From: a virus
Virus record (IMG/VR): IMGVR_UViG_3300006080_000003
Span: 1-49,366 of that record
Reading direction: 5' to 3' (one strand)
DNA: 49,366 nt
Shown: positions 1,461-22,376 of the stretch, piece after piece
Layout of the letters: every line of letters starts with the position of its first letter
How positions within the stretch are numbered: the first letter of the stretch is position 1
Program-made: the position numbers and the translations under genes
Notes under the pieces: generated by a model
Told to the model about the DNA's origin: nothing
What the model saw: the letters and a program-made list of their open reading frames with translations, nothing else
The model's database searches: none

Positions 1461-1757
1461 ATGAGTAACAAAGACTTTGACATGCGAGCATATATTGATA
1501 TTATTAATGAAGTTAATGAGGTTGATATACTTATGGAAGACATCATTAATGAGGAGTGGGATGAAATGAAAGCATTAAAGGCTACTCAGGACTTTAGAAT
1601 GGCATGGCAACAAGTTAAATATGTCGGCACCAGAAACAGTAATTTAAAACTAGCTAAAGAATTATACTATCAATTCGTTATTGGTTGGTGGGGTACTGAA
1701 ATGGCACAAGCAGCTGGCGTTTTAGAATTAGATAGTAACGAACCTTTTAATTCATAA
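1461..1757 (+). CDS. Putative capsid-targeted internal protein, 98 aa
   Basis: The N-terminus contains MRAYIDIINE followed by V, closely resembling the T4 internal-protein capsid-targeting sequence MKTYQEFIAE, which the prohead protease cuts after an (I/L)xE site. Here INE is residues 15-17, and a second site-like IINE follows near residue 32. The remainder is a short, partly helical domain of unknown function. A perfect late promoter (1419) and AGAGAG ribosome site precede it. It starts a run of four such genes to 3178. Packaging and cleavage are inferred by analogy. Confidence 0.8.
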   Translation: MSNKDFDMRAYIDIINEVNEVDILMEDIINEEWDEMKALKATQDFRMAWQQVKYVGTRNSNLKLAKELYYQFVIGWWGTEMAQAAGVLELDSNEPFNS

Positions 1758-1767
1758 GGAGAACAAT

Positions 1768-2391
1768 ATGAGTAACAAAGACTTTAACATGAGAGCATAC
1801 ATTGATATTATTAATGAGGCTAGTGCGATTGATATGATGAATGACCCCGATGGTTTCTTACAACGACAAATGCGAAAGAAGTCTACTTCAGGCAAAACAG
1901 AACAGTTTGGCCAAGATGAGACAGGTCGTATTGTTAAGGTAGATTCTAAACCTATTGTAGCGGGACCATACGATGACATTGGCATGGAAGACCCATACTC
2001 AATATACGGCCCTGAAGAAGACTTTGAGGCTTTAGCTGGGTATGGTGCTGAAGAAGACTTTGAGGCTTTAGCTGGGTATGGTGCTGAAGAAGACTTTGAG
2101 GCGTTAGCTGGATATGTAGAAGGTCCTGAAGAAGACTTTGAGGCGTTAGCTGGACATGTAGAAGGTCCTGAAGAAGACTTTGAGGCGTTAGCTGGACATG
2201 GTAAGTTTTCTAATAACCAAAACGGATACCATAAGAGAGAAGGTCAGAACTTCTGGACTATCGACAACGATGATCCATATTGGGATACACATGATATGGA
2301 AGGCAGCAGCGCATTTGAAGAAGCGCCTCGTACAGATAAAGAAGAGACTCCTAAGTTTGATATGAACTTTTGGACGAGCTTATTTAAATAG
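1768..2391 (+). CDS. Putative capsid-targeted protein with acidic repeats, 207 aa
   Basis: Starts after AAGGAG, 10 nt below the previous stop. Its first 17 residues are nearly identical to those of the gene at 1461 and end in INE followed by A, a good match to the T4 prohead protease rule. Residues about 82-145 hold five copies of EEDFEALAG, spaced 12 or 14 residues apart and strongly acidic. The C-terminus is aromatic and acidic (NFWTIDNDDPYW). Probably a core or internal head protein. Function beyond the leader is unknown. Confidence 0.82.
   Translation: MSNKDFNMRAYIDIINEASAIDMMNDPDGFLQRQMRKKSTSGKTEQFGQDETGRIVKVDSKPIVAGPYDDIGMEDPYSIYGPEEDFEALAGYGAEEDFEALAGYGAEEDFEALAGYVEGPEEDFEALAGHVEGPEEDFEALAGHGKFSNNQNGYHKREGQNFWTIDNDDPYWDTHDMEGSSAFEEAPRTDKEETPKFDMNFWTSLFK
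2011..2199 (+). repeat. In-frame tandem repeat, 5 copies of 36 or 42 nt
   Basis: GAAGAAGACTTTGAGGC begins at 2014, 2050, 2086, 2128 and 2170, so the spacing is 36, 36, 42, 42. It encodes EEDFEALAG plus a short linker. The high nucleotide identity means recent or ongoing copy-number change. Confidence 0.9.
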
Positions 2392-2411
2392 ATATAACAT
2401 AGGAGAACGAC

Positions 2412-2552
2412 ATGAACAACCAAAACTATAACCTTCGAACATACACTGATATTATTGATGAAGCTAATAAAAAGGTAGATGAAAACTGTGGTAAGATTAT
2501 AAAAGGTAAGCGTCACGGTAAAAAGAAAAAAAGTAAGAGCAAAAAGAAATAA
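2412..2552 (+). CDS. Small capsid-targeted basic protein, 46 aa
   Basis: ATG 2412 follows AGGAGAACGAC. The first part (LRTYTDIIDE then A) is a variant of the shared capsid-targeting motif with an IDE cleavage-like site. After the predicted cut, about 30 residues remain, ending in a strongly basic tail of Lys, Arg and Ser. The mature peptide would be a small polycation, fitting a DNA-condensing or DNA-bound internal head peptide. That role is inferred from charge and leader only. Confidence 0.75.
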   Translation: MNNQNYNLRTYTDIIDEANKKVDENCGKIIKGKRHGKKKKSKSKKK

Positions 2553-2566
2553 CGAGAGAGAACGAT

Positions 2567-3178
2567 ATGAAAGACTTTAACATGCGACAATACATTGACA
2601 TAGTTAATGAATCTAATGAGATAGAGGAAGGTATTTGGGGAGGACTTGCTGGAGCAGCTAAAGGCCTAACTAAGGGACTTGATGGAAAAACTGGTATTGC
2701 CGGAGCAAAGCAAGGCTGGAAAAATGGTAGATACACTGACGCTGATATTGATACGTTTAGTAAAATGACCGAGGTTCCACACGAGGAGATGGATGCCGTG
2801 TTTGGCAAAGGCTCTAGAAATAGATTACGTAAGTTTGTAAACGATGTAGATCTAGACGAAATAGATTCCCTAACGGCAGGTAGCACAATGAAAACTACTC
2901 TCGGTAAAAGAATGAAGGCTAGTCTTGTAAATGATTTACATATGAATAAAACGATGGATAATTTAAAAAATGTTCCTGATGACGCTCTTACGGGGATGTC
3001 AGCGGTGATGAAAGATTTAGGAAGGAAGATGGATGCTGATGGCGCATCGTCTATTAATTTTAATGGCCAAGAGGTATCGCGTGCTGAGTTTATTAATATG
3101 ATAAACACTCTTGATAAATCGATTAAACTTAAGGCTAAAGGTCCATTACCAAAACAGCCACGTACTAAGAAATTTTAA
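2567..3178 (+). CDS. Putative capsid-targeted protein with Gly/Ala-rich region, 203 aa
   Basis: The N-terminus MKDFNMRQYIDIVNE matches the shared leader, and a second cleavage-like IEE then G lies at residues 21-24. Next comes a Gly/Ala-rich stretch (GIWGGLAGAAKGL, about residues 24-50) that could be an amphipathic or membrane-active segment. The rest is charged and helical. AGAGAG supplies the ribosome site. Last of the first group of four leader-bearing genes. Likely a processed internal head protein; activity unknown. Confidence 0.8.
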   Translation: MKDFNMRQYIDIVNESNEIEEGIWGGLAGAAKGLTKGLDGKTGIAGAKQGWKNGRYTDADIDTFSKMTEVPHEEMDAVFGKGSRNRLRKFVNDVDLDEIDSLTAGSTMKTTLGKRMKASLVNDLHMNKTMDNLKNVPDDALTGMSAVMKDLGRKMDADGASSINFNGQEVSRAEFINMINTLDKSIKLKAKGPLPKQPRTKKF

Positions 3179-3180
3179 TC

Positions 3181-3402
3181 ATGTGGTTTACGATATACTT
3201 TTTAATTAATACTTCTCTTACTGGTGGGATAGAAACGTGGGTATCTGGTGATGTTGTCGCCCCTGATGGATGGTCCAGTAGATATTATGAAACTGGTTGT
3301 GAATCCCGAGCTAAACGTGCTAATGAATTGATTGAACAGGAGACATCAACCCGAGGTCTAATGAAGGCAGCATGTGGTATGTCTAAACCATCTAATTTGT
3401 AA
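3181..3402 (+). CDS. Hypothetical small protein, 73 aa
   Basis: Begins 3 nt after the previous stop with no clear ribosome site, so translation is probably coupled. The N-terminus is hydrophobic (MWFTIYFLINTSL) and could be a weak signal or anchor, followed by a Trp/Tyr-rich region and two cysteines (ETGCESRAK, AACGM). Family not recognised. Reality as a gene is likely but not certain. Confidence 0.55.
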   Translation: MWFTIYFLINTSLTGGIETWVSGDVVAPDGWSSRYYETGCESRAKRANELIEQETSTRGLMKAACGMSKPSNL

Positions 3403-3414
3403 CTGATATAATAT

Positions 3415-4164
3415 ATGAATGTATACATCTTAACTTATAAGGGTGGCGCTTGTGGTACGTTTATTAATTACTTTATTAATAGACACAAGTCCTTTCCTAA
3501 TCAAATTTGTATTGGTGAGTGCATTAAAGGGAATCTAAATCAATTAGTTGATGATGATGTACATTTCCATCGTATCAGCAGGCACCAACTTTCTGATTAT
3601 GCATATATAAGTGATAACTATGAAGAGATAGTTAAAAATAAAAGGTTAGCCGGACTAGATCTTAAAAAGCTAGATGACATCTGGCGCAGACGAAGTGGAC
3701 CAGGACATGACCATGGGATTTGTGTCACATATGGTGGAATTGATGCCTGGCGCAAATCTCGGATATGTCATGATCATAGGGATATTTTCTTGAACATGGA
3801 ATTTGATAGCATATCATTAACTCCATCACCGGCGCATCATCCGGCATTCTTTGTACATCATCCAAACTATATTGTAGGAAGTGATAGTAATAATATTTAT
3901 AAGCATATATCGATTTTGACTAATAGTAAGTTTAGGCGAATAAAAAATGCTGATAAATATCCTCAAGCATTTGACTTAAAGCAAACAACTTTCAATAAAG
4001 AATTAAGAAAGGCGATGAATGTTCCATTACATACTATTCATTTGTTAAATCTATTAGATTGTGATACTAATGAATACAATAAGTTACTTGACTTTATAGA
4101 GCAACCACCACTTGATAACTGGAAAGAACTAATAACAGATTATCGTACAGCAATTAAATATTAA
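3415..4164 (+). CDS. Sulfotransferase-like P-loop paralogue A, 249 aa
   Basis: First of three tandem paralogues. The N-terminus has a hydrophobic strand, a Gly/Cys loop (YKGGACGTF, residues 8-16) and a helix, an arrangement like the phosphate-binding loop of sulfotransferases and related P-loop enzymes. A central HHPAFFVHHPNYIVG block and a C-terminal EYNKLLDFIEQPPLDNW block are shared by the family. The ends are nearly identical to the neighbour's, while residues about 35-130 differ. The sulfotransferase assignment is inference from motif layout. Substrate unknown. Confidence 0.65.
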   Translation: MNVYILTYKGGACGTFINYFINRHKSFPNQICIGECIKGNLNQLVDDDVHFHRISRHQLSDYAYISDNYEEIVKNKRLAGLDLKKLDDIWRRRSGPGHDHGICVTYGGIDAWRKSRICHDHRDIFLNMEFDSISLTPSPAHHPAFFVHHPNYIVGSDSNNIYKHISILTNSKFRRIKNADKYPQAFDLKQTTFNKELRKAMNVPLHTIHLLNLLDCDTNEYNKLLDFIEQPPLDNWKELITDYRTAIKY

Positions 4165-4165
4165 A

Positions 4166-4172
4166 ATAAATA
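4166..4172 (+). promoter_or_regulatory. Possible late promoter
   Basis: ATAAATA between paralogues A and B, 36 nt before the start at 4209. Confidence 0.45.
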
Positions 4173-4178
4173 TACATT

Positions 4179-4199
4179 ATGGATAAAAACAAAAGGTAA
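4179..4199 (+). pseudogene. Remnant start of the methyltransferase gene
   Basis: ATGGATAAAAACAAAAG followed at once by a stop resembles the first codons of the gene at 5708 (ACATTATGGATAAAAAAAC). It lies between paralogues A and B, as expected if tandem duplication carried the start of the downstream gene along. Confidence 0.4.
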
Positions 4200-4208
4200 G
4201 AAGAAGAT

Positions 4209-4964
4209 ATGAATGTATACATATTAACATATAAGGGTGGCGCTTGTGGTACGTTTATTAATTACTTTATTAATAGACATAAATCATTCCCTAATCCTAT
4301 TCGCATTGGCACACCAATCAAAGGGGATAGATCTAGCTTATCCGATGATTCATCAGTACATTTTACGATGTTCGGTAAGCAACACATTGCCGATGTACTC
4401 TATGTCCGTGATCACTATAACGAGATGACTGAACATCTATATCGCGAGGATGGCGAGATGTCCGAGTACGGCTGTGATAGTTATAAGCTAAATCAAATAA
4501 TAAAATTTAATGAAACAGTCAATGATGAGATGTTTGATAGCTATCATAATACTATTAATGAATGGTTTAATAATGTTAAGGATTCTTATTTAAACCCTGA
4601 CTTTGATAGTATATCATTCACACCGTCACCATCACACGCGCCATCATTTTTTGTACATCATCCAAACTATATTGTAGGTACTGGTGGAGATTATAATTAT
4701 AAACATATAACTGTATTGGTCGATAGTAATTTTAAACGAATAGCGGCTGCTACTAGCAAACCTGAGACTCTGGATACTCATTATTATCATAACGTGGAGG
4801 AAATGTCTAAATGGTCACCAGTACCAATTCATGTTATTGATTTATTAAAACTAATTGAGTGTGATACTAATGAATACAATAATTTACTTGACTTTATAGA
4901 TCAACCACCACTTGATAACTGGAAAGAACTAATAACCGATTATCGTACAGCAATTAAATATTAA
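4209..4964 (+). CDS. Sulfotransferase-like P-loop paralogue B, 251 aa
   Basis: Second tandem copy. The first 29 residues are identical to those of paralogue A, and the last 30 or so are nearly identical at protein and DNA level, but the section from about residue 35 to 130 is unrelated by eye. The central block reads FTPSPSHAPSFFVHHPNYIVG. AAGAAGATAT is a modest ribosome site. The pattern of fixed ends and variable middle points to recombination or diversifying selection. Function as for paralogue A: probably group transfer, substrate unknown. Confidence 0.68.
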   Translation: MNVYILTYKGGACGTFINYFINRHKSFPNPIRIGTPIKGDRSSLSDDSSVHFTMFGKQHIADVLYVRDHYNEMTEHLYREDGEMSEYGCDSYKLNQIIKFNETVNDEMFDSYHNTINEWFNNVKDSYLNPDFDSISFTPSPSHAPSFFVHHPNYIVGTGGDYNYKHITVLVDSNFKRIAAATSKPETLDTHYYHNVEEMSKWSPVPIHVIDLLKLIECDTNEYNNLLDFIDQPPLDNWKELITDYRTAIKY

Positions 4965-4975
4965 ATGGAAACATT

Positions 4976-5695
4976 ATGACAAAAATATATCTATTATGGT
5001 TCAGAGGAGGAACGTGTGGTAATTTTATTAGCCAATTTATTAACACACATACTAATTTTATATCGCAACTGCCTGGGCAAATTATCACATCTGCCAGGCC
5101 ACATATCCCCGCAGGTGGCTCCCATATAGAACGCACTAGCGCAGCAATTGATACTGTCTACATTGCTAAAAATTATGATGCCATCAAGATGTCGACGAGT
5201 GGTAAGTCATATGAAAATAGGAATAATATCACACGAATTAATAACTGTGCAAAAGAAACGGGCAACTGTCCATCATCAATAATGTATGATTATAATCTCA
5301 ACGGCGATATTAATATTCATTATAAAAGCGCCAATGATCGCATTTGTCTAATACCCTATGATCACTCATTTGCGTTTGCAACAGATCACACATCATGCTT
5401 TTCGACATGGCCATATTCTTTATATAATTTAGTAATTACGGTACCACGTACCCCAATGTTTTCTAGGTTTAGTAAATCTAGAAAACAACTAATGATTGAT
5501 AAATTGTTTGATCAGCAAGATAGAGCCTGTCATACGTTTACCAATATGGAACGCCCCTATCATTCTTTAGACATATATGAACTTTTAAAGTGCAATGAAA
5601 ATGAATACAATAAGTTACTTGACTTTATAGAGCAACCACCACTTGATAATTGGAAAGAACTAATAACCGATTATCGTACAGCAATTAAATATTAA
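4976..5695 (+). CDS. Sulfotransferase-like P-loop paralogue C, 239 aa
   Basis: Third copy, with a more divergent N-terminus (FRGGTCGNFISQFINTH, residues 8-24) that keeps the GGxCGxF loop and helix. The central PSP-HAP-FF block is degraded (DHSFAFATDHTSCF). The C-terminal block from EYNKLLDF onward is identical to paralogue A. Together these suggest gene conversion of the 3' ends. Starts 11 nt after paralogue B. Likely the same enzymatic class with altered specificity, or a decaying copy. Confidence 0.65.
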   Translation: MTKIYLLWFRGGTCGNFISQFINTHTNFISQLPGQIITSARPHIPAGGSHIERTSAAIDTVYIAKNYDAIKMSTSGKSYENRNNITRINNCAKETGNCPSSIMYDYNLNGDINIHYKSANDRICLIPYDHSFAFATDHTSCFSTWPYSLYNLVITVPRTPMFSRFSKSRKQLMIDKLFDQQDRACHTFTNMERPYHSLDIYELLKCNENEYNKLLDFIEQPPLDNWKELITDYRTAIKY

Positions 5696-5707
5696 AATGG
5701 ACACATT

Positions 5708-6301
5708 ATGGATAAAAAAACAAAAGAGTTATTGGGTTTAAATTTTGATGCCAAAGGCCGTGAAAAATGGAATGTGATAACACAAGAGAAGCATTCTGAT
5801 GGATATAAACAGTTTAAGAAAGAAGCACTGGCATGGTTTAACAGTTTTAATTGCTCTAACCCGGTTGATATTGGATGCGGATCAAATATATTTAAAGGAA
5901 AAATACCAAATGTAATAGGCTTAGATATGTTTAATGATGATGCTGATATAATAGCATCTATAGAATCAAACCCTTTTGATGTTAATAGTATTGATGGCGC
6001 CATAATATTTGGTAGTATTCAATTTTTAAGTGAAGAATATACATTAGCAAACTTCGATATAGCAATGTCATGGTTAAACCCCAACTCACCTATTCTATTC
6101 AAGTGTAGATCTAAATCTAACTTAGAGTTTGAACGCAATATCAAGAATGACAAGTATACAAAAAGAGCTAAGGTAATACGTGATAGAAATATAGAATGGA
6201 CCGATGAAATGTTTGATTATGTTATTAAAAAATATAACTTAGAAGTTGTACGTTCATTTGAAAATATGAAACACCGTCATTTTTTATTCATAAAAAGGTA
6301 A
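5708..6301 (+). CDS. Class I SAM-dependent methyltransferase-like, 197 aa
   Basis: A Rossmann SAM-binding motif DIGCGSN lies at residues 56-62, followed by an acidic strand end (GLDMFNDDADI) and a later strand with GAIIFGSIQFL. Residues 1-50 are charged and helical. It follows the three sulfotransferase-like genes by 12 nt and is probably co-transcribed. Target unknown: it could modify the same small molecule or glycan as its neighbours, or DNA. No DPPY-type DNA methylase motif is visible. Confidence 0.75.
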   Translation: MDKKTKELLGLNFDAKGREKWNVITQEKHSDGYKQFKKEALAWFNSFNCSNPVDIGCGSNIFKGKIPNVIGLDMFNDDADIIASIESNPFDVNSIDGAIIFGSIQFLSEEYTLANFDIAMSWLNPNSPILFKCRSKSNLEFERNIKNDKYTKRAKVIRDRNIEWTDEMFDYVIKKYNLEVVRSFENMKHRHFLFIKR

Positions 6302-6309
6302 GAAAAAGG

Positions 6310-6751: not shown

Positions 6752-6763
6752 GGAGTAATTGAT

Positions 6764-8093: not shown

Positions 8094-8101
8094 TATAAAT
8101 A
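8094..8101 (+). promoter_or_regulatory. T4-type late promoter
   Basis: Exact TATAAATA followed by CTAATATTAGATTA; the same downstream sequence recurs at the late promoter 17183-17189. Serves the gene at 8129. Confidence 0.75.
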
Positions 8102-8128
8102 CTAATATTAGATTAACCCGAGAACATT

Positions 8129-8377
8129 ATGGAAAACATGAGAGATATAATTAACAAGATTGAAGAAATCAACGTTGAAGACACTAGTACTATTACAGAG
8201 GCCGAACTAAAGGTTTTTCAAGTTTCATTTAGTGATAAATTTGAGGCAGGATCAAAAGAAGAAGTGTATTCTCAGATTCTAGAGTTTTGCCAAGAGGTAG
8301 TTGATACTGGCGATGTTACAGCATTTAATGTAGCTCCAGAAGTAGAAGGCCGACCTGGAAACTTTAGAATATCATAA
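8129..8377 (+). CDS. Small protein with capsid-targeting-like start, 82 aa
   Basis: MENMRDIINKIEE resembles the shared leader (MR.xIINxxE) with an IEE cleavage-like site at residues 11-13. The rest is an acidic alpha/beta mini-domain (VFQVSFSDKFEAGSKEEVYSQIL) that looks compact and soluble. A perfect late promoter and CCGAGAAC precede it. The leader match is weaker than in the genes at 1461 to 3178, so capsid delivery is less certain. The stop overlaps the next gene's presumed start. Confidence 0.75.
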   Translation: MENMRDIINKIEEINVEDTSTITEAELKVFQVSFSDKFEAGSKEEVYSQILEFCQEVVDTGDVTAFNVAPEVEGRPGNFRIS

Positions 8378-8573: not shown

Positions 8574-9170
8574 TTACTTTTTCTTTAGTGCTTTGGCATA
8601 TTCATCTCGAACCTGTGCCATATAATCATCTAAATCTTTAGCGTTTATTGGTTTGAACTCAGGACGAGGGGGATAAGAGTCTGGATAGTCCATCTCGCTT
8701 TTTGACTTGGGTTGGATGTGGTCTTTAGATAGATTCTTATCCCCCTTGCCGAATATTAGTTTACCGTCTCCATGACCTTTAATGCCGGCAAGTTGGTCGC
8801 CAATATCATCTATATTAGTGTATGGACTATTGATTGGATCAATATCGTCTAAATGCTTACTGAACCCTTGCTTAATAAGGCTCCAAATCCCTCCTTCATC
8901 AAGTTGTGATCGTCCAATATTATTTTCAGTAACAAACAAAGATATAATATCATTTAACCAACCATCTTTTTTAAGGGTTGTTTCTGGAGCACCTTTGAAG
9001 TTATCATAATCACGTCTGGTCATTGGTTTATGTATGTCAGACCGTAGACCATATTTATCCATTAAATCGCCGTATCGAGTTGGATTAGTTAATAAATCTA
9101 CTAATTCCTGGGTGTTGTTAAACTGCTCTTGTTCATTGATAATATCAATATATTTTCTCATTTTGTCCAT
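8574..9170 (-). CDS. Putative capsid-targeted internal protein, 198 aa
   Basis: MDKMRKYIDIINE is one of the best matches to the capsid-targeting leader, with INE at residues 11-13 and a second cut-like site LDE then GGIW near residue 90, recalling the EEGIWGG of the gene at 2567. The remainder is hydrophilic with an Asp/Lys-rich C-terminus. Transcribed leftward, against its neighbours, from a late box at 9255-9262. Function after injection unknown. Confidence 0.8.
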   Translation of the reverse strand: MDKMRKYIDIINEQEQFNNTQELVDLLTNPTRYGDLMDKYGLRSDIHKPMTRRDYDNFKGAPETTLKKDGWLNDIISLFVTENNIGRSQLDEGGIWSLIKQGFSKHLDDIDPINSPYTNIDDIGDQLAGIKGHGDGKLIFGKGDKNLSKDHIQPKSKSEMDYPDSYPPRPEFKPINAKDLDDYMAQVRDEYAKALKKK

Positions 9171-9909: not shown

Positions 9910-9916
9910 CTAAATA
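9910..9916 (+). promoter_or_regulatory. Late promoter-like box
   Basis: CTAAATA followed by CATAATATAAACAG, 32 nt before the start at 9949. Confidence 0.5.
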
Positions 9917-9948
9917 CATAATATAAACAGTTTACCAAGGAATACACT

Positions 9949-10731
9949 ATGAACAATGATGAAATGAGAAATATAATTAATATATCAGAGGGCATAGTTA
10001 AAAATGTTGATAGCACACCTAAAACATTTAAACGCACAGACCAACTGAAGGCGAAAAACCCAACAGGCATAGATAGATTTCTCGGACGTGGTGAAGATGA
10101 TGACTGGGATGAATATCCAGAATATCCATTACCTAAGGGTAAGGGTGTTGAGCGCCGCACACATGATCATGAAACGAATCACCACCTTAGCGAACATTCA
10201 GCTGAACAATCAATGCGCGATGACGCACAAGAGATATTAAGGTACATAACTGCGTTAGCTAAAGCATCGCGGTATAATTCTAACGGCGCTCTTAAGTTAG
10301 TCAAAAAAATGGAAGCTATCACTAACTTTATTACTAAAGATGAGATGACAGAAGGCTTTGAAGACAGAGATAGATTAGCTAATATTGATGGCGTATTTCC
10401 AGATGGATGGGAAAATCCAGCCGAAGAATATGCTGACCTACCTATAGATATGCAAGCTGTATTAGACCAATTTGTGACTGATATGACACCTGAAGAAAAA
10501 CAAGTATTTATGATGTGGAAGAACAAATCACAGGCCGGAGAAATATATAATGGAGAACCTGTAGACCGCCCTGATGGCATGGAGTTCGATCCAATAGTAC
10601 ATGCTGATGGAGACACAGCGACAGTGCGTTCTATATCTCCAGAAAAATGGGCAGAATTTAAAGAAATTGCCGGTGGTGATGATGAGAAGTTTAGTAAATT
10701 AGTATCTGATATGTTTGGCGCTGATGAATAA
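9949..10731 (+). CDS. Putative capsid-targeted protein, complete copy, 260 aa
   Basis: MNNDEMRNIINISE then G fits the leader plus an ISE cleavage site (residues 12-14). Residues about 44-62 carry DDDWDEYPEYPLPKGKG, a module also found in the protein at 12387-13409. The C-terminal third (YADLPIDMQAVLDQFVTDM to FSKLVSDMFGADE) recurs in the fragment at 12019-12324. Acidic overall, no enzymatic motif seen. Its stop overlaps the start of a truncated second copy, evidence of tandem duplication. Likely a processed internal head protein. Confidence 0.82.
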   Translation: MNNDEMRNIINISEGIVKNVDSTPKTFKRTDQLKAKNPTGIDRFLGRGEDDDWDEYPEYPLPKGKGVERRTHDHETNHHLSEHSAEQSMRDDAQEILRYITALAKASRYNSNGALKLVKKMEAITNFITKDEMTEGFEDRDRLANIDGVFPDGWENPAEEYADLPIDMQAVLDQFVTDMTPEEKQVFMMWKNKSQAGEIYNGEPVDRPDGMEFDPIVHADGDTATVRSISPEKWAEFKEIAGGDDEKFSKLVSDMFGADE

Positions 10732-10804
10732 CGATGAAATGAGAAAGATTATTAATCTATCAGAGGGAATAGTTAAATCACTGCTTAGGAATCAATATGT
10801 ATAA
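10724..10804 (+). pseudogene. Truncated N-terminus of a duplicated capsid-targeted gene
   Basis: A 26-codon frame starting at ATG 10724, inside the end of the preceding gene, reads MNNDEMRKIINLSEGIVKS, almost the same as the start of the 9949 gene, then ends at a TAA at 10802. The matching C-terminal half appears at about 12150-12324, after the halogenase gene. It reads as the 5' piece of a second gene copy split by halogenase insertion. It could still be translated as a short leader peptide. Confidence 0.7.
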
Positions 10805-12059
10805 TATGTTTTTGAATGAGACTATAAACCGGATCACCGTTGTCGGTGGCGGCACCGCGGGATATATGACCGTACTGTTTCTATGTAAGACATTTCCAGA
10901 AAAACAAATAACTTGGATATATCCAGAAGATAACAATCCGATTGGTGTTGGTGAAGCAATTGTACCAGGCGTGTCAATGTTTCTTGCCAAGTTAGGAGTA
11001 ACATCAACTGATATAATTAATAACGCAAATGGGACATTAAAACTTGGTTCAGCGTTTAAAGAATTCAGTATAGGCCAATCATTTACATTTCCCTTTGACA
11101 CCAGGACGTCTTTCATGAAAGACTTAATGGTTGATAACGATATCCTATCAGACTGGTTAGATAGAGGTTGGGCAGTAGCAAATCCAACTCACTTTAGATG
11201 TACTGATTTACTCACTTATTTAGATACTATAATGCCCTCCCTTAAGAATTTAACTATCTTGAGGAAAATAACAACCCTCGAAGAAATTGAAGGGACATAT
11301 GATTTCGTCATTGACTCTACTGGTTTTGGTAGAAGGCTATTAGGTGAAGATAAGGAGTTTGTATCCATTACAGACAAGATACCTAATAACGCTGCTTATG
11401 TCTATAGACATCCATATGTTAATAAAGCAGAACAAATGGTACCTCATACTGTGTTTGAAGGTATGGATTATGGTTGGGTATGGAATATACCATTGAAAGA
11501 TGAAATGGCATATGGATATGTACATGACGATAAGTATGATGTTAAAGATGATTTCGTAAAGCTCATCAGTAGTAAGGTTGGAGTTGATATTGATCCAAAT
11601 GAAGTACGTAAAGTGTCAATGAGAACTGGTAGAAATACAACACACATAACTAAAGATTCAATGTACGTTGGACTATCCTCTAGTTTTATTGAACCATTAG
11701 AATCTACAGGGTTATTAATAACAGTTAGAAGTCTTGAGTTATTAAAGGCATATCTTCAAGGTACTGTAAGTATTGATGAAGCTAATTTTCAGATTAACAA
11801 AGAGTTTGACGCGTTAGTTGATTTTGTAGTAATACATTACAAATATTCAAATAGAGATAATGACTATTGGAACCACTATAAAAACATACCAACAGATGCA
11901 TTTGAAAATGGTATGGCATTCCAATATAGTAAATTAGTAGATTACCTCCTACCTAGGTTTAAGGGGGAAACTCCTGAAGAATTAATGGACGTCCCTGAAG
12001 AACTTAGTAATATCCCTCGTGAACCATATCCAGCCTGGTTTGATGCCGAATTCAATTGA
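10797..12059 (+). CDS. FAD-dependent tryptophan halogenase-like protein
   Basis: Flavin-dependent halogenases chlorinate or brominate tryptophan or indole groups using FADH2, O2 and halide. The FAD loop GGGTAG (residues 17-22), the diagnostic WVWNIP (227-232), a lysine at 82 in TLKLGSAFKEF aligning by eye with the catalytic Lys of PrnA, and Glu302-Ser303 in EPLESTG are all present, so the active site looks intact. At 420 aa it is shorter than PrnA-type enzymes, like other phage relatives. TAGGA precedes the start. It lies between the two halves of a broken gene. Substrate unknown. Confidence 0.88.
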   Translation: MYNMFLNETINRITVVGGGTAGYMTVLFLCKTFPEKQITWIYPEDNNPIGVGEAIVPGVSMFLAKLGVTSTDIINNANGTLKLGSAFKEFSIGQSFTFPFDTRTSFMKDLMVDNDILSDWLDRGWAVANPTHFRCTDLLTYLDTIMPSLKNLTILRKITTLEEIEGTYDFVIDSTGFGRRLLGEDKEFVSITDKIPNNAAYVYRHPYVNKAEQMVPHTVFEGMDYGWVWNIPLKDEMAYGYVHDDKYDVKDDFVKLISSKVGVDIDPNEVRKVSMRTGRNTTHITKDSMYVGLSSSFIEPLESTGLLITVRSLELLKAYLQGTVSIDEANFQINKEFDALVDFVVIHYKYSNRDNDYWNHYKNIPTDAFENGMAFQYSKLVDYLLPRFKGETPEELMDVPEELSNIPREPYPAWFDAEFN

Positions 12060-12324
12060 TCTAGTTGTACCATGGAATCGCGGAAGCGATATGTACGACA
12101 GAAAGCAGCATAAGCGAGAGATGAGAGAGTGGATTCGTAGTTTTGCATCATATGAATATGTGGCCGAAAAATATTCTGAATTGCCGATTGAAGCACAAAC
12201 CACATTAACCCAATATATGGCTAATATGTCGACTACAGAAAAACAATTATTTAAAAAAATTGCCGATGGTGCTGATGAGAAGTTTAGTAAATTAGTATCT
12301 GATATGTTTGGCGATAATGAATAA
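12019..12324 (+). CDS. C-terminal fragment of the duplicated capsid-targeted gene, 101 aa
   Basis: Open from GTG 12019, with ATG choices at 12043 and 12091. From about residue 48 it matches the C-terminus of the 9949 protein: YSELPIEAQTTLTQYMANM against YADLPIDMQAVLDQFVTDM, and both end in EKFSKLVSDMFG. The last 40 or so nucleotides are almost identical to that gene's end. It lacks the leader and is in a different frame from the N-terminal piece at 10724. Probably a remnant; translation from 12091 is possible. Confidence 0.6.
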   Translation: MNHIQPGLMPNSIDLVVPWNRGSDMYDRKQHKREMREWIRSFASYEYVAEKYSELPIEAQTTLTQYMANMSTTEKQLFKKIADGADEKFSKLVSDMFGDNE

Positions 12325-12386: not shown

Positions 12387-13409
12387 TTACTTCTTATTCT
12401 TTTTTGCTTTGGCGTCGATGCGTCGTTGCTTTAGTTTAGACACATTTTTGGGTGGTGTGACTTCCGGTAATCCTATATTTCTTCTAAGGTTGGCCTCAAT
12501 GGCATTACTAATCGCATCAACTTTTGTTTTCGGAACAGAGTCAACTCCGAATAATTTGTTTGCATCAGTAATACCAAACTTCTTATCATAATCTCCTATT
12601 GCAATTTGTTGTCTTGATTTTTTAATTTTATTGGCGGCTACATACTCAGCAAATGTCATATTATTAGTTAGTCGCTTAGGTATATCTAATAATTCTGACA
12701 CACTTGTTCCTTTAGGAGGGCCAACACCTATGACTGTAGTGGACACCTTTGGAAGATTAGGATCAGCCATTATTTGGTAGGGGCTGTGATTCTTGCCACT
12801 CATTGGCTTACCTATTCCCAGGCTGTTGCCTTTTGGAATCGCTATATTGCCGCTTGCTTCTATAGGTTTTATTTTATTCCCATAAGCATCAATACCGTGT
12901 ATAGGTTTTATATCTGGAATAACTTTAACGGCATCATCACCGAATCCACCTAATTTACGTAAAAAATTAATCGCACCAGCATAACCCTCATCAATCTCAT
13001 CTTCATTTATATTATCCTTTTTTACCCTGTTGCCTATATATGCCTCAGGATTTTTAGCTATATCATCATCTACCTTTTTATACTCTGATTTCTTGAGTAT
13101 ATCCTGTAATTCTTTCTTATTGATCTTTGATCTCAATTGTTTATTTAGAGCAGCAAGCCATTCAGCAGAGCCATCAAACATCTGTAATAGATTTTTGATT
13201 GGTCCCACTCCTTCATTTAATGGTTTCTCTTCATAATTGTCGTTATCTGACGGCTTAGCTTTTGGCAATGGGTATTCATCCCATTTATCAGCATCATCAT
13301 AGTAATACGGTTTCTTTTCTCTTTCAGAATCGAATTCAAGCTGTTTAGATTGTCTTAGTTTATCTAAAATAGAATACATATCACTTTTATTGCGTTTATC
13401 GATTGGCAT
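12387..13409 (-). CDS. Putative internal head protein with DEYPLPK module, 340 aa
   Basis: No classical leader at the extreme N-terminus, but cleavage-like sites PLNE then G (near residue 66) and IDE then G (near 141) resemble T4 prohead protease sites. Residues about 40-52 (DDADKWDEYPLPKAK) match a module in the 9949 protein. The C-terminus is strongly basic (KLKQRRIDAKAKKNKK). A late box lies 28 nt upstream on the minus strand, with AAGGA as ribosome site. A processed internal protein that binds DNA is plausible. Confidence 0.78.
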   Translation of the reverse strand: MPIDKRNKSDMYSILDKLRQSKQLEFDSEREKKPYYYDDADKWDEYPLPKAKPSDNDNYEEKPLNEGVGPIKNLLQMFDGSAEWLAALNKQLRSKINKKELQDILKKSEYKKVDDDIAKNPEAYIGNRVKKDNINEDEIDEGYAGAINFLRKLGGFGDDAVKVIPDIKPIHGIDAYGNKIKPIEASGNIAIPKGNSLGIGKPMSGKNHSPYQIMADPNLPKVSTTVIGVGPPKGTSVSELLDIPKRLTNNMTFAEYVAANKIKKSRQQIAIGDYDKKFGITDANKLFGVDSVPKTKVDAISNAIEANLRRNIGLPEVTPPKNVSKLKQRRIDAKAKKNKK

Positions 13410-15704: not shown

Positions 15705-15812
15705 TTATTCCCACCATTTCTTTGGCGGCGCAACTACTATTCTACCGTCTTCGACAGATAATTCTTCATCTGGATCTTCTAGTCCATTATCGTTCAGTGA
15801 AGATTGATAATC
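15705..15812 (-). other. Coding-like tail frame overlapping the oxygenase end
   Basis: Thirty-five codons on the minus strand, in the +1 frame relative to the oxygenase and overlapping its end, encode an acidic segment then RIVVAPPKKWWE and a stop. It has no ATG, GTG or TTG start. A +1 shift at the oxygenase stop (CGA TAA T) would fuse NGLEDPDEELSVEDGRIVV onto the enzyme. May be programmed frameshifting, a single-base error, or a decayed gene. Confidence 0.4.
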
Positions 15813-16731: not shown

Positions 16732-17193
16732 GTGAAGATACTAGTAATGGGACTACCAGGTAGCGGCAAGACTACATTTAGCGAGAAAATGTTCAACGTG
16801 TTAAATCAAGTGTTTCCGGTTACATGGTATAATGCTGATCGGGTGCGCCATCAATTTGATGACTGGGATTTTTCCAAGGAGGGTAGAGTTAGACAAGCCA
16901 AGCGTATGAATAAGTTGGCAAATGATAAATGTAATTCAAATAACCTTAACATTGTTATTGTTGATTTTATTGCTCCAACCGCACATACACGATCACAGTT
17001 TGATGCTGACTATGTAATATGGATGAACACCATTGACAACGGTAGATTTGAAGATACCAATAGTATGTTCACTGAGCCACGGGCGGGTGATGTTGATACG
17101 GTTATTACTACATGGAAGTATGACATGAAGACTATTGATAGAATATGTAATGACATAGTTACCCGTAAATATTTAAAAAGTAATAAATACTAA
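16732..17193 (+). CDS. APS kinase-like P-loop protein, 153 aa
   Basis: Adenylylsulfate kinases phosphorylate APS to PAPS, the sulfate donor for sulfotransferases. The Walker A loop GLPGSGKTT is at residues 7-15, followed by WYNADRVR and a DFIAPT block like the CysC motifs, and IWMNTIDNGRFEDTN. GTG start with AGAGGAGAATT before it. Its location near the sulfotransferase-like pair at 17899 and 18732 supports a PAPS-related role. It could instead be another small-molecule or polynucleotide kinase. Confidence 0.72.
   Translation: MKILVMGLPGSGKTTFSEKMFNVLNQVFPVTWYNADRVRHQFDDWDFSKEGRVRQAKRMNKLANDKCNSNNLNIVIVDFIAPTAHTRSQFDADYVIWMNTIDNGRFEDTNSMFTEPRAGDVDTVITTWKYDMKTIDRICNDIVTRKYLKSNKY
17183..17189 (+). 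promoter_or_regulatory. Late promoter
   Basis: ATAAATA followed by CTAATATTAGATTA, the same downstream sequence as at 8094. Overlaps the end of the kinase gene and serves 17216. Confidence 0.65.
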
Positions 17194-17215: not shown

Positions 17216-17803
17216 ATGAGATATTCTGACATACAGTTATTAAATGAAAAACATTGGAAGAAACGCTCGTCCAGTAGCTCTAGTAGTAACTTTAAAGATA
17301 AAAAACACAATCACAACAGCTATAACAGGCATGAACCTGAACATGACGGTAGTGTTCCGCATCGTGACTCCCATAAGAGACATAAGAGACGTATCAAACA
17401 ACGTAAACAACACAACCAACATAACCAACACAATAATCATGAACATAATAAAGGCCGCCACTTTAATAAGAAACGCAGGAATAGTATTAGCATAAATCTA
17501 AATACACCACGTGTTCAGTATAGACGTCCACTCCCACGAACATCATCTACCACTACTACAGAGCGGGTACCACAGGAATGGGATGGTAATCAATGGGTGG
17601 ACGCAAATTCAACAGAGTTTGTAACAACACCCACCCAATCACGCCGTGATAATACATCAAGTGAAAAGTTAGATTGGGATGGTGGTGAATGGAATGCTGA
17701 TGCGGGTGTGACTATGTCAGATTTAAATGCTGCAGATGATACTCAGAGAATGATGCATCAAAACTATGAATTAAACCAGTTTAATAAACGACAAAAAAAA
17801 TAA
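17216..17803 (+). CDS. Putative capsid-targeted His/Arg-rich protein, 195 aa
   Basis: MRYSDIQLLNE then K is a variant leader with LNE at residues 9-11. A Ser run follows, then a strongly basic region (about residues 25-95) rich in His, Arg, Lys and Asn, and a more acidic C-terminus with a repeated WDG(N/G)xW motif (residues about 120 and 158). The basic block would bind DNA in the head. Late promoter upstream, AGGACAAAGAA as ribosome site. Function inferred from leader and composition. Confidence 0.78.
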   Translation: MRYSDIQLLNEKHWKKRSSSSSSSNFKDKKHNHNSYNRHEPEHDGSVPHRDSHKRHKRRIKQRKQHNQHNQHNNHEHNKGRHFNKKRRNSISINLNTPRVQYRRPLPRTSSTTTTERVPQEWDGNQWVDANSTEFVTTPTQSRRDNTSSEKLDWDGGEWNADAGVTMSDLNAADDTQRMMHQNYELNQFNKRQKK

Positions 17804-17815
17804 CCACATACTTTT

Positions 17816-17899
17816 ATGGATTTAAAAAATTTACAATTGATCGCCATTATGGTAGCGGCTAGTTTTATTTTGTCAATTGGTATATTATATCTGAATTAA
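17816..17899 (+). CDS. Single-span membrane micro-protein, 27 aa
   Basis: MDLKNLQLIAIMVAASFILS then IGILYLN: nearly the whole peptide is one membrane helix. Its TAA overlaps the ATG of the next gene (TAATG), so it may also couple translation. No strong ribosome site. Could be a small membrane regulator or a leader peptide. Confidence 0.5.
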   Translation: MDLKNLQLIAIMVAASFILSIGILYLN

Positions 17900-18735
17900 T
17901 GACACCATCGACCACGATTTATTTGGTACTATATGAATCGGGACTATGTGGGAATTTAGTATTACAAATATTAAACGCCCATAATAATTTCCCACAACAA
18001 AAACGGATAGGTTCAATAAATCATAACCCACGTAATTATATGTTTGCCGACCATAAACACTATGATAGAGAGTTCACTATTGTTGATGAAGGATATTTAA
18101 GTGAGCATTACGATGAGATTTTGAATAGCAATGATGGAGTCGAATTCAAAAAACCATTTAATAGCGGATATCGAAGACATTATTCTGATCCACAGACCGC
18201 TGATGAGACGTTGGCTAATTTAGATTATGAAAGCAATGTATTTGTAGCGTTAACAACAAAATATCAATCAGGATTAAATAATTATATTGTTAATTCTGAT
18301 GGCAACATACAACCATGGGCAAACAGCAGATTATTGCCACCGAGGGGTAAAGGAATTAAAGTTTTTAAGAACGATAGGTTTAGTAAAATAGCATTTGTGC
18401 CGAGTCCATTTCATGCTCCTGGATTTTTTGTTGAATTCCCATCATATATTTCTGACAATACGGAATATCAAGTAAAGTATATAATGATTACCGCATCAGC
18501 TGATTTCAATCGCATTAAGAAGGATAAACAATGGAAATTAGAAAGAATGTCAGAGTATGATGACCTAATATCAATATTTGATATAATGGATAAACCTTTA
18601 ATGGAGTTAGATATCGTATCGCTATTGGATAAGTCAGATTCGGAATACCAAAAGCTATTAGATTTTATAGGTGAAGACTCACTTGATAATTGGAAAGATA
18701 TGGTAGATGTGTATAAGGCTGCGGTTAATTTATGA
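17899..18735 (+). CDS. Sulfotransferase-like P-loop paralogue D, 278 aa
   Basis: Same family as the genes at 3415-5695. N-terminal YESGLCGNLVLQILNAHNNF (loop and helix), a central FVPSPFHAPGFFVEFPSYI block, then YQVKYIMITASADFNRI and a C-terminal EYQKLLDFIGEDSLDNW. The middle holds its own variable region. Starts on the stop of the micro-protein and overlaps paralogue E by 4 nt. Assignment rests on motif order and the nearby APS-kinase-like gene; substrate unknown. Confidence 0.67.
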   Translation: MTPSTTIYLVLYESGLCGNLVLQILNAHNNFPQQKRIGSINHNPRNYMFADHKHYDREFTIVDEGYLSEHYDEILNSNDGVEFKKPFNSGYRRHYSDPQTADETLANLDYESNVFVALTTKYQSGLNNYIVNSDGNIQPWANSRLLPPRGKGIKVFKNDRFSKIAFVPSPFHAPGFFVEFPSYISDNTEYQVKYIMITASADFNRIKKDKQWKLERMSEYDDLISIFDIMDKPLMELDIVSLLDKSDSEYQKLLDFIGEDSLDNWKDMVDVYKAAVNL

Positions 18736-19763
18736 AACCCACACTGTATCTATTAGTATATGAATCAGGACTGTGTGGCAATTTCATGATTTACTTTATA
18801 AATCAACATAATAACTTTCCTTTACAATTGTCAATAGGAGCTAGGTCTTCGGCTCAGGGCGATGGCAAGCATCATCGACCAAAGAGATGGTTATCGCCCA
18901 CAGCATACCACTATAGGCCTAGATTTGGGCTCGTTGATTCTAAATTTAAATGTGATTCAACCGTAGTTATATCTAAATATAACGAATATATTAAGTGTGA
19001 TGATTGGCTTAACGAGGTAATAGACCAACCTGCTCTTCAAGTATTAGATATATCTTCTAGTAATATCGATACCACAAAAAAGGCATTTAACATGTGTTTA
19101 AATGCAGAAGTTCCCGGCCACAAGGAGGATGAGAAAGTTATTGGCGCAGCTGATCGATTATGGCGGCCAATGTGGAACACCATAATGCGACATAACACGC
19201 GACAGAGAAAGAAAGACGAACTCATTACATTTGACAGAACCAACATGACATGGGAAAGACCTAGTCCGAAAGATATAATAGATACAGATGATATATATAC
19301 AACTACATTTGTTGGTGGCGCCTGGAGGGATAACAAATCGGAAACACTTGGCATGCCGACAATATTTAATAACGAGAATGCTACAAAGATGGCATCATTT
19401 TCACTGGCACAACATTCAATTGATTTTCATATAGCACATCCTAACTTTTTTAGAAGTAATGAATTTTATGACATTAAGTATGTGGTATTGACTACACTGT
19501 CATCTGACTGGGGCCGCCTTAAATCTGATTTGCAATCATATCATATTAAAATGAATCGTGAATTTACGGATTTGAAATTAGATAAATTTAAGTACTTGCG
19601 GGGTGAAGACAATGTACAAGAAATCTACATTGATCATTTGCTATCTAATCATCAGGCAGACTCTCAGTGTGAATATCAGAAATTACTTGATTTCATAGGT
19701 GAAGACTCACTTGATAATTGGAAAGATATTATTAAGAAATATAAAGAGAGTATTAACTTCTGA
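18732..19763 (+). CDS. Sulfotransferase-like P-loop paralogue E, 343 aa
   Basis: Longest paralogue. YESGLCGNFMIYFINQHNNF at residues 9-28 and EYQKLLDFIGEDSLDNWKD near the C-terminus match paralogue D, and over 30 nt near the 3' ends are identical. The central section is about 90 residues longer, with a charged insertion (residues about 95-190). The HAPGFF block is replaced by DFHIAHPNFF. Same probable fold; the insertion suggests a different acceptor. Confidence 0.67.
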   Translation: MKPTLYLLVYESGLCGNFMIYFINQHNNFPLQLSIGARSSAQGDGKHHRPKRWLSPTAYHYRPRFGLVDSKFKCDSTVVISKYNEYIKCDDWLNEVIDQPALQVLDISSSNIDTTKKAFNMCLNAEVPGHKEDEKVIGAADRLWRPMWNTIMRHNTRQRKKDELITFDRTNMTWERPSPKDIIDTDDIYTTTFVGGAWRDNKSETLGMPTIFNNENATKMASFSLAQHSIDFHIAHPNFFRSNEFYDIKYVVLTTLSSDWGRLKSDLQSYHIKMNREFTDLKLDKFKYLRGEDNVQEIYIDHLLSNHQADSQCEYQKLLDFIGEDSLDNWKDIIKKYKESINF

Positions 19764-19778
19764 ATTCAGTTAAAACGA

Positions 19779-19785
19779 ATAAATA
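19779..19785 (+). promoter_or_regulatory. Late promoter
   Basis: ATAAATA followed by CTATACAATATATAC, 27 nt before the metallopeptidase start at 19813. Confidence 0.6.
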
Positions 19786-19812
19786 CTATACAATATATAC
19801 AATGGTAACATA

Positions 19813-21231
19813 ATGAGATTTAACGACATATCAGAAGATCATAAGTCATATAAAGGAACAAACACATTTCCTGATCCGGACAATAAAGAACTAACAACTA
19901 AATATTACGGTGATATGACAATGGATGAATTGGAAACATATCCAGACCCTGATTGGAAAAATCCAGATCTTAAAATGATAGGTACGCCAGGTACAACACC
20001 AACTATACCAGTAGAGCCAAAGCCAATAGAGCCAATAGAGAAAAAACCCACAGCTACCGCTCCTGATTACGTTACAAATCCAGAATTACTTGGCGACATG
20101 GAGGCTGTGAAACGAGATATAGCAGGCTTTGATCCAGATGCGTACGATAAAAAGACACTAGCTGACCTTATTGCCGTCGGTAATACAGAACCAAAAACTA
20201 GAGATAAAAAATATACCTACTCGAAACCCCACCATGATACTAAACCTAATGCGATAGCAGCAGCTATTGATAATTATTCAACCACAGAGGTGTATGGGTG
20301 GCGTGTAAGAAATGATATACCGGGAAATATTGATCGGGTCAAGCTTGAATTAGAAAGATTCTCTAACGCTACTGGCATTCCACCCCGAGCAATAGCTATG
20401 AGTAGTTCAGCAAGAGATGAATTGAATTACGGTAGCACCACCAGCTCAAATGCGGCCGGTACACACGCAGGCGTATTTCCAGCGTCGCATGCCTCAGCCG
20501 CTCCGTTGGGTTCTAAAATAAAAATTGCAGGAAGTTTCCTTGATTATGATGATGAAGATACCAGAGATACGTTCTATCATGAAATTTGGCACCATTTACA
20601 AATGAAACTAGGAGCAGTTAATGCGGAAGGCGGACAGAGAAACCAATCGTGGAAGAGTCGATTTCCTAAGAATGATATTCTAAATAATTTTGCAAATGGT
20701 GATCAGCGGTTTGATTTAGAGGATCGACTTAATAGCTTTACTGGCTTCGGCAGAGGTAATTATCGTGGACAACATTTTTTAGCTATCGCTGATAAAAGTA
20801 AAAACGCAGATGGAAACATAGACAGAGCAGTATGGAGAAAAAATCTATACGACAATATTGTCAATAGTAAAACAATGCAGCAAGCGCCTGAGATGAAACA
20901 CTTATGGGCTACGGCGTTTTCTAATTTAGCAACAGATCCAAATTTACTAAAGCATTCATCAGATACACTGCATAGACATCTAGCTAACCACGGCAAACAA
21001 AATTATTACAGATTTGACCCTGAAGAGTTAGGAGCAAGAGCCCTTGCCTCATATGTAACATTGGCGAATAAATCAGAATCGGATAGAGAAGCTGAATTTG
21101 CTTCTGGGGGTAGTCGAATAACCTCTACAACGTTTAAGCATATAAAGAAATGGTTAGCGAGTTTACGTGTAATTAATGGTGTTGGATTGGCCACGAATAA
21201 GTATAGAACTAAAGGAATAAGAATGACATGA
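19813..21231 (+). CDS. Putative capsid-targeted zinc metallopeptidase 1, 472 aa
   Basis: N-terminus MRFNDISE then D resembles a short capsid-targeting leader with an ISE site. Residues 55-90 are Pro/Thr-rich linker. The catalytic HEIWHH (256-261) is a zincin HExxH motif. A downstream DPEELGARALASY (402-414) resembles the ExxARAxxxY element of zincin domains in polyvalent phage proteins and could give the third zinc ligand. Late promoter upstream. It overlaps the next, related gene by 4 nt. Probably injected to cut a host protein; target unknown. Confidence 0.8.
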   Translation: MRFNDISEDHKSYKGTNTFPDPDNKELTTKYYGDMTMDELETYPDPDWKNPDLKMIGTPGTTPTIPVEPKPIEPIEKKPTATAPDYVTNPELLGDMEAVKRDIAGFDPDAYDKKTLADLIAVGNTEPKTRDKKYTYSKPHHDTKPNAIAAAIDNYSTTEVYGWRVRNDIPGNIDRVKLELERFSNATGIPPRAIAMSSSARDELNYGSTTSSNAAGTHAGVFPASHASAAPLGSKIKIAGSFLDYDDEDTRDTFYHEIWHHLQMKLGAVNAEGGQRNQSWKSRFPKNDILNNFANGDQRFDLEDRLNSFTGFGRGNYRGQHFLAIADKSKNADGNIDRAVWRKNLYDNIVNSKTMQQAPEMKHLWATAFSNLATDPNLLKHSSDTLHRHLANHGKQNYYRFDPEELGARALASYVTLANKSESDREAEFASGGSRITSTTFKHIKKWLASLRVINGVGLATNKYRTKGIRMT

Positions 21232-22376
21232 GATATAACCAAATTAAAATAAGCGAAACCGAAGATGCTTTAGGTGCTGAAAAACTACCAACTAATCCTG
21301 TAAATTGGATGAAAAGTAATATGGGGAAAACGGCTGATGATATGGCTGATGTTTTCAATATCTTTGGACGCGCCAAGCGCAGAGACAGCGAATACAAATA
21401 CAACCCACCTGGCCCCAATGTGCCTACATTCAAGGAAATAAAAGCCTGGCATTTGGATGGTAAAGACAACTACAAATCAATACCAGATTGGCTCAAGAAA
21501 GAAGAGTGGCACGACATACATGGATTTAACTTTTCCGGTACATCAGAAGAGGCAGACTTATTAAGAAAGGGAATAGAGGACCAGGCTAAAGTTTGGAATG
21601 TTCCACCGAGAGCATTTACAAATAATCAGACAAATCTAATTACGTCTGGCTCAGGTAAACCAAAAAAAGCAAGTGATGGGTTTGGTAAAGACCAAATCAC
21701 ACTAGGATCACAAAAACCAGGATATACAAAAGATATGCCGTTCATGTCCCAAATAGATTTAGGGCAAGTTACTCCTGAATACATGAAGCACACATTCCCA
21801 CATGAATGGGCGCATCATTTAAGTATGAACATAGCCGCAGTTGATGAAAAAGGCGGCGTTCGATATGGAAACAAAGACAGACGCCTTGTACAATTTACAA
21901 GTCCTGAAAATTATATTACAGGTTTTGGTATTGGTGCTAATGCTACTCGTGAATATTTAAATATTTTAGATAGATCAAGAGGACAAGATGGTATAGTTAA
22001 TGCGGATGAGGTAAGAGGTAAACTATTTAATCAATTTATGGCAAGTGATTCAAATAAACAGCGGCCTGAATTAAAGAAAGCAACAGCCTTGATGACTAGT
22101 TTTATTTTATCTGACAATCATTTATTATACGCGGCAGAAACCAGTAAAAATGATTGGCCAAAACAATACAGGTACCATCCTGAAGAACAATTCGCAAGAG
22201 CACTTGCTGAATATTCTCGCTTACAGGCGCTTCCACCTGAGGAAAGATTCAAAGGAAAGACTAAGATTAACAAAGATACATATGATGCCATACAGTACTG
22301 GTCTGATACTAAGAAAGTAATCAACGGTAATACTATTGCTAAAAACAGAACAACAAATAATAATAAACTAGCATAG
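21228..22376 (+). CDS. Putative capsid-targeted zinc metallopeptidase 2, 382 aa
   Basis: Paralogue of the preceding gene. MRYNQIKISE then T is the leader-like start (ISE at 8-10). It shares a PPRA segment (residues 126-129), the catalytic HEWAHHLSMN (192 onward), an AAVDEKGG segment and HPEEQFARALAEY near residue 325. Start overlaps the previous stop (ATGA), so the two are co-translated. Shorter because the Pro/Thr linker is missing. No signal peptide, so action in the cytoplasm after injection is the simplest model. Confidence 0.8.
   Translation: MRYNQIKISETEDALGAEKLPTNPVNWMKSNMGKTADDMADVFNIFGRAKRRDSEYKYNPPGPNVPTFKEIKAWHLDGKDNYKSIPDWLKKEEWHDIHGFNFSGTSEEADLLRKGIEDQAKVWNVPPRAFTNNQTNLITSGSGKPKKASDGFGKDQITLGSQKPGYTKDMPFMSQIDLGQVTPEYMKHTFPHEWAHHLSMNIAAVDEKGGVRYGNKDRRLVQFTSPENYITGFGIGANATREYLNILDRSRGQDGIVNADEVRGKLFNQFMASDSNKQRPELKKATALMTSFILSDNHLLYAAETSKNDWPKQYRYHPEEQFARALAEYSRLQALPPEERFKGKTKINKDTYDAIQYWSDTKKVINGNTIAKNRTTNNNKLA

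Follow-up and report, generated by a model that had tools for sequence, protein, structure and literature searches.

The viral record IMGVR_UViG_3300006080_000003 of IMG/VR, analysed here over its whole length of 49,366 nucleotides (nt; hereafter the window), contains eleven open reading frames (ORFs) whose products begin with a similar leader, that is, 8–11 residues ending in (I/L/V)xE. The original prediction had placed leader starts at 1461, 1768, 2412, 2567, 8129, 8574–9170 (minus strand), 9949, 10724, 17216, 19813 and 21228, and all of these recur in the ORF translations; the claimed ending likewise holds for 11 of 11 leaders, and the narrower (I/L)xE for 10 of 11. In the following list (lengths in amino acids, aa), residues ahead of the leader proper are in lower case and an arrow marks the predicted cleavage site.

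1461..1757, plus strand: leader protein, 98 aa, msnkdfdMRAYIDIINE↓V
1768..2391, plus strand: leader protein, 207 aa, msnkdfnMRAYIDIINE↓A, with acidic EEDFEALAGY repeats
2412..2552, plus strand: leader protein, 46 aa, mnnqnynLRTYTDIIDE↓A
2567..3178, plus strand: leader protein, 203 aa, mkdfnMRQYIDIVNE↓S
8129..8377, plus strand: leader protein, 82 aa, menMRDIINKIEE↓I
8574..9170, minus strand: leader protein, 198 aa, mdkMRKYIDIINE↓Q
9949..10731, plus strand: leader protein, 260 aa, mnndeMRNIINISE↓G
10724..10804, plus strand: truncated leader gene, 26 aa, mnndeMRKIINLSE↓GIVKSLLRNQYV, left over from the 5′ end of a second 9949 copy
12019..12324, plus strand: reading frame that contains the 3′ remnant of the second 9949 copy, C terminus DEKFSKLVSDMFG..E
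17216..17803, plus strand: leader protein, 195 aa, MRYSDIQLLNE↓K, with a polycationic Ser/His/Lys/Arg body
19813..21231, plus strand: leader protein, 472 aa, MRFNDISE↓D, with HEIWHH, a likely zinc peptidase
21228..22376, plus strand: leader protein, 382 aa, MRYNQIKISE↓T, with HEWAHH, a paralogue of 19813

Three kinds of leader can be told apart: a first group (n = 5; MRAYIDIINE twice, LRTYTDIIDE, MRQYIDIVNE and MRKYIDIINE), a second group (n = 3; MRNIINISE, MRKIINLSE and MRDIINKIEE) and a shorter kind (n = 3; MRYSDIQLLNE, MRFNDISE and MRYNQIKISE). Many of the genes open 3–7 codons ahead of MR (for example, msnkdfnMRAYIDIINE), with a Shine–Dalgarno-like GAGA/GGAG before this first ATG, and the leaders span 8–17 residues when these additional residues are counted.

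Late promoters of the T4 type, TATAAATA(C), have TAAATAC as their core. Such a box (a consensus match, not a measured transcript) lies 32–40 nt ahead of all five leader units that have an upstream region of their own on the plus strand.

1421..1427, plus strand: TAAATAC box, 40 nt before the 1461 gene, the first of four leader genes
8096..8102, plus strand: TAAATAC box, 33 nt before the 8129 gene
9911..9917, plus strand: TAAATAC box, 38 nt before the 9949 gene
17184..17190, plus strand: TAAATAC box, 32 nt before the 17216 gene
19780..19786, plus strand: TAAATAC box, 33 nt before the 19813 gene

The box also occurs ahead of a tail-fibre-like gene at 47149, of 685 and of 13409 (minus strand), and the promoter regions of 8129 and 17216 have a long identical stretch in common.

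Behind the leaders, the bodies are largely without mutual similarity, so that the earlier claim of unrelated bodies stands for most of them and gives way for two paralogous pairs, namely 19813 and 21228 (26% identity over 377 aa) and the 9949 protein and the 12019–12324 fragment. In addition, the first 17 residues of the 1461 and 1768 products are identical except for one. The predicted cut after IIDE in the 2412 product would leave a strongly basic mature peptide of 29 aa, and the sole viral-contig match of the 2567 product (contig G002) spans residues 1–41. Pfam, PHROGs and PADLOC gave no significant match for any leader protein of the window, and a related-locus search with three of the bodies returned only the leader region of G002. 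Peptidases had been proposed earlier among the bodies, and for 19813 and 21228 this identity is plausible and indeed likely from their HExxH motifs and a conserved downstream E, whereas a fold search gave no confirmation: the AlphaFold model of 21228 built with its one paralogue was poor (predicted local distance difference test score, pLDDT, of 46.5), a Protein Data Bank (PDB) search with it was uninformative, and tblastn of both proteins against named phages found no match. Kinship of the pair with a family of leader-bearing HR(F/M/L)xH proteins in relatives (see below) was considered and set aside, as profile comparison showed none.

The closest known counterpart is found in phage T4, in whose record the internal proteins (IPs) IPII and IPIII begin with MKTYQEFIAE↓A. 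Foreign proteins enter the head when they carry just the first 10 residues of IPIII, of which positions 4 and 7 are important for targeting and positions 8 and 10 for processing; the protease gp21 cleaves after L/I-x-E, after which the internal proteins are ejected into the host (PMC9026906). The leader is also the sole common part of Ip1, Ip2 and Ip3, which block different type IV restriction enzymes (PMC12373910). The MRxYIDIINE class carries Y4, I7, I/V8 and E10, that is, every residue shown to matter in T4; the short class aligns with these key residues only in part.

These resemblances exceed what would be expected by chance. In the six frames of the window, a consensus that was based on T4 and not on the window itself (M[KR]xYxx[FILMVWY][ILV]xE) has four matches, whereas 200 dinucleotide-shuffled versions gave 0.04 on average and never more than 2; on the T4 genome, a wider form (Y or F at residue 4) retrieves ipII, ipIII and gp61.1. 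A regular expression drawn from the window leaders matches 6 of the 74 window ORFs, against 0.07 with N-terminal residues shuffled. The same expression, fitted to both leader classes after the fact and with matches in phage Atu_ph07 that partly belong to one paralogous family, finds 80 of 4,866 N-termini and 26 of 18,013 internal methionines across 14 genomes and contigs. The short class is degenerate, and single matches to it in large genomes may be due to chance; a looser expression, M[RK]x(4,8)[ILV]xE, was dropped because it over-calls (for example, likely false positives at 15787 on the minus strand and at 18732). At the DNA level, an exact pattern for MRxYIDIINE (second residue R or S) matched three viral contigs and nothing in 257 Gb of bacterial and archaeal genomes, and a looser pattern matched 18 stretches, 12 of which lie at most 20 residues from an ORF start. 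The residue after the predicted cut (P1′) is Ala in 21 of the 80 pooled leaders, and A, G, S or T in 50%, against a background of 25%.

Judged from these sequences, what is conserved is the leader peptide and not its DNA. When the G002 leaders are pooled with those of the window, 54 of the 113 codon differences between them are synonymous. Five contigs that represent one syntenic locus (L254, L255, L259, L261 and L264) keep the leader MSNTNTPDMRAYIDIL(S/N)EQ with 85% amino acid identity (46 synonymous versus 28 non-synonymous differences), while two different body groups (54%) stand behind it. Because synonymous differences are many and the leader persists where bodies are exchanged, selection appears to act on the peptide. 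In the 19813/21228 pair, the leader residues are likewise retained beside a spacer of very different length. L255 also encodes, at 3180–3446 and adjoining an MRAYIDILSE gene, a strongly basic leader protein of 88 aa (MKINEITLDE).

In giant relatives, such leaders stand ahead of recognizable enzymes. In G001 (415 kb) they precede Acb1 (at 315074; E = 2.8e-37), Nudix (8.5e-16) and ART-PolyVal (8.7e-12) domains; in G003 (499 kb), GNAT (4.6e-12) and ART-PolyVal (1.4e-6, slightly below the curated cut-off); and in G006, a cytidylyltransferase-like domain (2.9e-6). The HR(F/M/L)xH family, whose members are probably metallopeptidases on the strength of this motif, recurs behind leaders in G003 (twice), G001 and G033, the last with five leader genes within 28299–36003. 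The Acb1 (57B) and NudE proteins in the T4 record have no such leader.

Judged by two of its proteins (37–53% identity), the window comes closest, among named phages, to the jumbo phages related to PA5oct, and a gp21-type S77 protease was found in G003, G006, G028, G036 and PA5oct, with the T4 gene order (portal, gp67-position gene, core protein, protease, core protein, major capsid protein) retained. The N-terminal region of seven capsid proteins contains (L/I)xE↓(A/N/S/T)A, and a leader-like N-terminus is encoded by the gp67-position gene of PA5oct (MKINDIITE↓G), Atu_ph07, Phosso and G028.

We suggest that the leader serves as a capsid-targeting propeptide of the kind known from phage T4, which is the best explanation of these observations and, in our judgement, a probable one. 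The original prediction had read it in this way, and support comes from the T4 key residues, the late-type promoters, the retention of the leader with swapped bodies, the gp21-type protease of relatives, the conservation of the cleavage site and the virion mass spectrometry (MS) of two relatives. In PA5oct, electrospray ionization tandem MS of virions, which did not separate head from tail, detected 4 of 6 leader proteins versus 89 of 439 others (p = 0.019). The leader genes of this phage include those at 157529, 260677 and 261410. Atu_ph07 has an array of leader genes (gp53–gp63) with leaders of the form MRWxQLxE, and 11 leaders matched by the regular expression lie in coding sequences (CDS) 31–76; of the 46 products of this cluster, 29 were detected in virions, a cluster-level count (Attai et al., PMC6102473). 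Were detection independent of the leader, the probability that all 11 leader genes fall among the 17 undetected products would be approximately 1e-6.

Several observations weigh against this interpretation. Packaging, cleavage and injection of the window proteins are inferred, not observed. No head gene, be it S77 protease, scaffold or capsid, was found in the 49-kb record, which is probably a fragment. The 8574 gene (minus strand) has no TAAATAC box at the usual distance. The PA5oct enrichment becomes weaker (p = 0.06) once two paralogues are counted as one, and the leaders of this phage are all of the short class and not MRxYIDIINE (a ten-residue model built from the window gives no convincing match there). 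Most Atu_ph07 leaders belong to one paralogous family, with virion hits known per cluster and not per gene, and in G003 the regular expression is enriched modestly (13 of 816 N-termini versus 9 of 2,853 internal methionines). Gene 12 of Salicola phage SCTP-2, a homologue of the basic leader protein of L255, lacks the leader; this fits a removable module, yet it also shows that the body does not require the leader. Finally, G002 (L134), the nearest contig with the leader, has leader-like copies within long ORFs (minus strand, 3933, 6058, 6295 and 8949; for example, TMRNYIDIINGNSLNEG and SMRQYINIANDIITE). This arrangement suggests fused leader–body units, and the long ORFs could encode a polyprotein that is cut several times or could indicate that the motif is functional at internal positions too.

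If the leader is a capsid-targeting propeptide, it would dock its bearer proteins into the prohead core late in infection, where a gp21-type (S77) protease would cut after (I/L/V)xE and free the bodies inside the head. The freed bodies would then be ejected with the DNA into the next host cell and could act ahead of any phage gene expression, with DNA-binding polycations and peptides, likely metallopeptidases and effectors as the candidate cargo of the window, and anti-defence and host-modifying enzymes as that of jumbo relatives. A broader proposition, on which we regard the case as evenly poised, is that T4-superfamily jumbo phages have in common a leader-addressed system that preloads such enzymes (that is, the Acb1 enzyme against the cyclic-oligonucleotide-based anti-phage signalling system, Nudix proteins, ADP-ribosyltransferases, GNATs and likely metallopeptidases), that some bearers are leader–body strings cut by the prohead protease, and that the tag can serve as a sequence-only finder of injected proteins.

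Of the alternatives, the one that survives best, unlikely as we consider it, is that the leader is a peptide for docking to the prohead core and for maturation, and that its bearers are not injected as effectors but stay behind in the capsid, in structural, core or DNA-condensing roles. The core gene at the gp67 position with a like N-terminus in several relatives would fit this, as would the several window bodies that are polycations or acidic repeats rather than enzymes and the lack of Pfam, PHROGs or PADLOC matches noted above; however, the Acb1, Nudix, ART and GNAT cargo of relatives makes sense in the host cell, and T4 proteins with such leaders do enter the host (PMC9026906, PMC12373910). 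We think it decidedly improbable that the leader targets something else (for example, tail, baseplate, membrane or a host chaperone) or belongs to a common fold in which (I/L/V)xE is incidental: the internal copies in G002 and the joint analysis of head and tail in PA5oct leave some room for this, whereas the ending always fits the gp21 motif, small P1′ residues are enriched, the leader residues match those that T4 needs for targeting, and bodies of very different size and composition follow the leader directly. That the common N-termini are a functionless by-product of recent duplication or recombination at shared upstream DNA (late promoter and start) is already disfavoured and hardly credible, for although 1461/1768, 9949/10724 and 19813/21228 are or contain duplicates and the 8129 and 17216 promoter regions have their identical stretch, synonymous leader differences are many, the leader is conserved in divergent contigs while the body is replaced, and distant jumbo phages have the same peptide behind upstream DNA that differs.

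A capsid-targeting propeptide of the T4 type would place the window proteins close to IPI, IPII and IPIII, which have a 10-residue N-terminal propeptide with a basic residue 2, aromatic residue 4, hydrophobic residues 7 and 8 and E10, an (L/I)xE end often followed by Ala, and one leader on non-homologous bodies; propeptides of this T4 kind are about 7–19 residues long. The present set differs in its variants (MRxYIDIINE, MRFNDISE, MRWHQLTE and MRNWINLVE), in the 3–7 residues that often precede MR, in having eleven genes within 49 kb, in its likely enzyme cargo and in the internal leader copies of a relative. The leaders on ART-PolyVal domains in relatives recall T4 Alt, a head-packaged ADP-ribosyltransferase, but Alt has its own 7-residue propeptide removed and belongs to another ART family (PMC9026906, PMC5512222); no ART was found among the window proteins. 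Polyvalent or head-packaged effectors (Iyer, Burroughs and Aravind) overlap in domains (ART-PolyVal, GNAT, Nudix, 2H phosphoesterase and metallopeptidase) and have been proposed to be injected. They were recognized from domain fusions and gene context, and a short cleavable leader is not described in the parts of that work available to us; the window proteins, by contrast, are mostly single and orphan, with no significant Pfam domain and hence no polypeptide found to combine several catalytic domains. The ejection proteins of SPN3US and phiKZ are similarly processed head proteins ejected by a jumbo phage, but most known propeptides there are of approximately 125 residues (one of 20), against 8–17 in the window, and the SPN3US protease is of the S80 family rather than the T4 S77 type (PMC5694885).

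Although T4 capsid-targeting sequence cargo is already known as a kind of system, a search of open-access papers did not turn up this leader in jumbo phages. Its occurrence as far away as distant jumbo phages of the T4 superfamily, the abundance of leader genes, the variants, the extra N-terminal residues, the enzyme cargo with Acb1 among it and the internal copies have no earlier description in the searchable open literature. Few of the proteins injected by jumbo phages are known, and a leader that can be read from sequence yields a testable list, in which each match predicts a virion protein, the exact position at which its mature form begins and a role that precedes expression of the phage genes. 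With a leader on the Acb1 and Nudix proteins of a relative, the means to counter defences based on nucleotide signalling could enter the cell together with the DNA.

Other genes of the window deserve mention. A tryptophan halogenase gene (PF04820, E = 3.7e-56) within 10724–12324 parts the 5′ remnant of the second 9949 copy (MNNDEMRKIINLSEGIVK, at 10724) from the 3′ remnant, an arrangement that looks as if the halogenase gene had been inserted into a tandem duplicate of the 9949 gene. The neighbouring 340-aa protein at 12387–13409 (minus strand) has a WDEYPLPK-like sequence in common with the 9949 protein, a TAAATAC box and LNE↓G and IDE↓G sites, and no leader. Five paralogues (3415–5695, 17899–19763 and 2069–3692 of G002) start with M..YIL.Y.GG.CG.FI...IN.H and a P-loop-like N terminus; they have variable middles, a near-constant C-terminal tail (EYxKLLDFI..xxLDNWKxxxxxYxxAI) and no Pfam match.

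Directly behind both HExxH leader genes, 22440–25356 encodes a TctA transporter (E = 7.2e-80), a small rubredoxin-like ORF and a TctC-like periplasmic protein, which are unusual auxiliary genes for a phage. GTP cyclohydrolase I, a QueE-like radical SAM protein and a TGT-like protein of 499 aa, shared with PA5oct, are encoded within 34249–47116 and probably form a 7-deazaguanine DNA modification set, near which lie genes for S-adenosylmethionine (SAM) synthetase and a nucleosidase (PNP_UDP_1). Four radical SAM/SPASM-like proteins (25409–27851, 31706–32824 and 39869–41197) are encoded within the 49-kb record.

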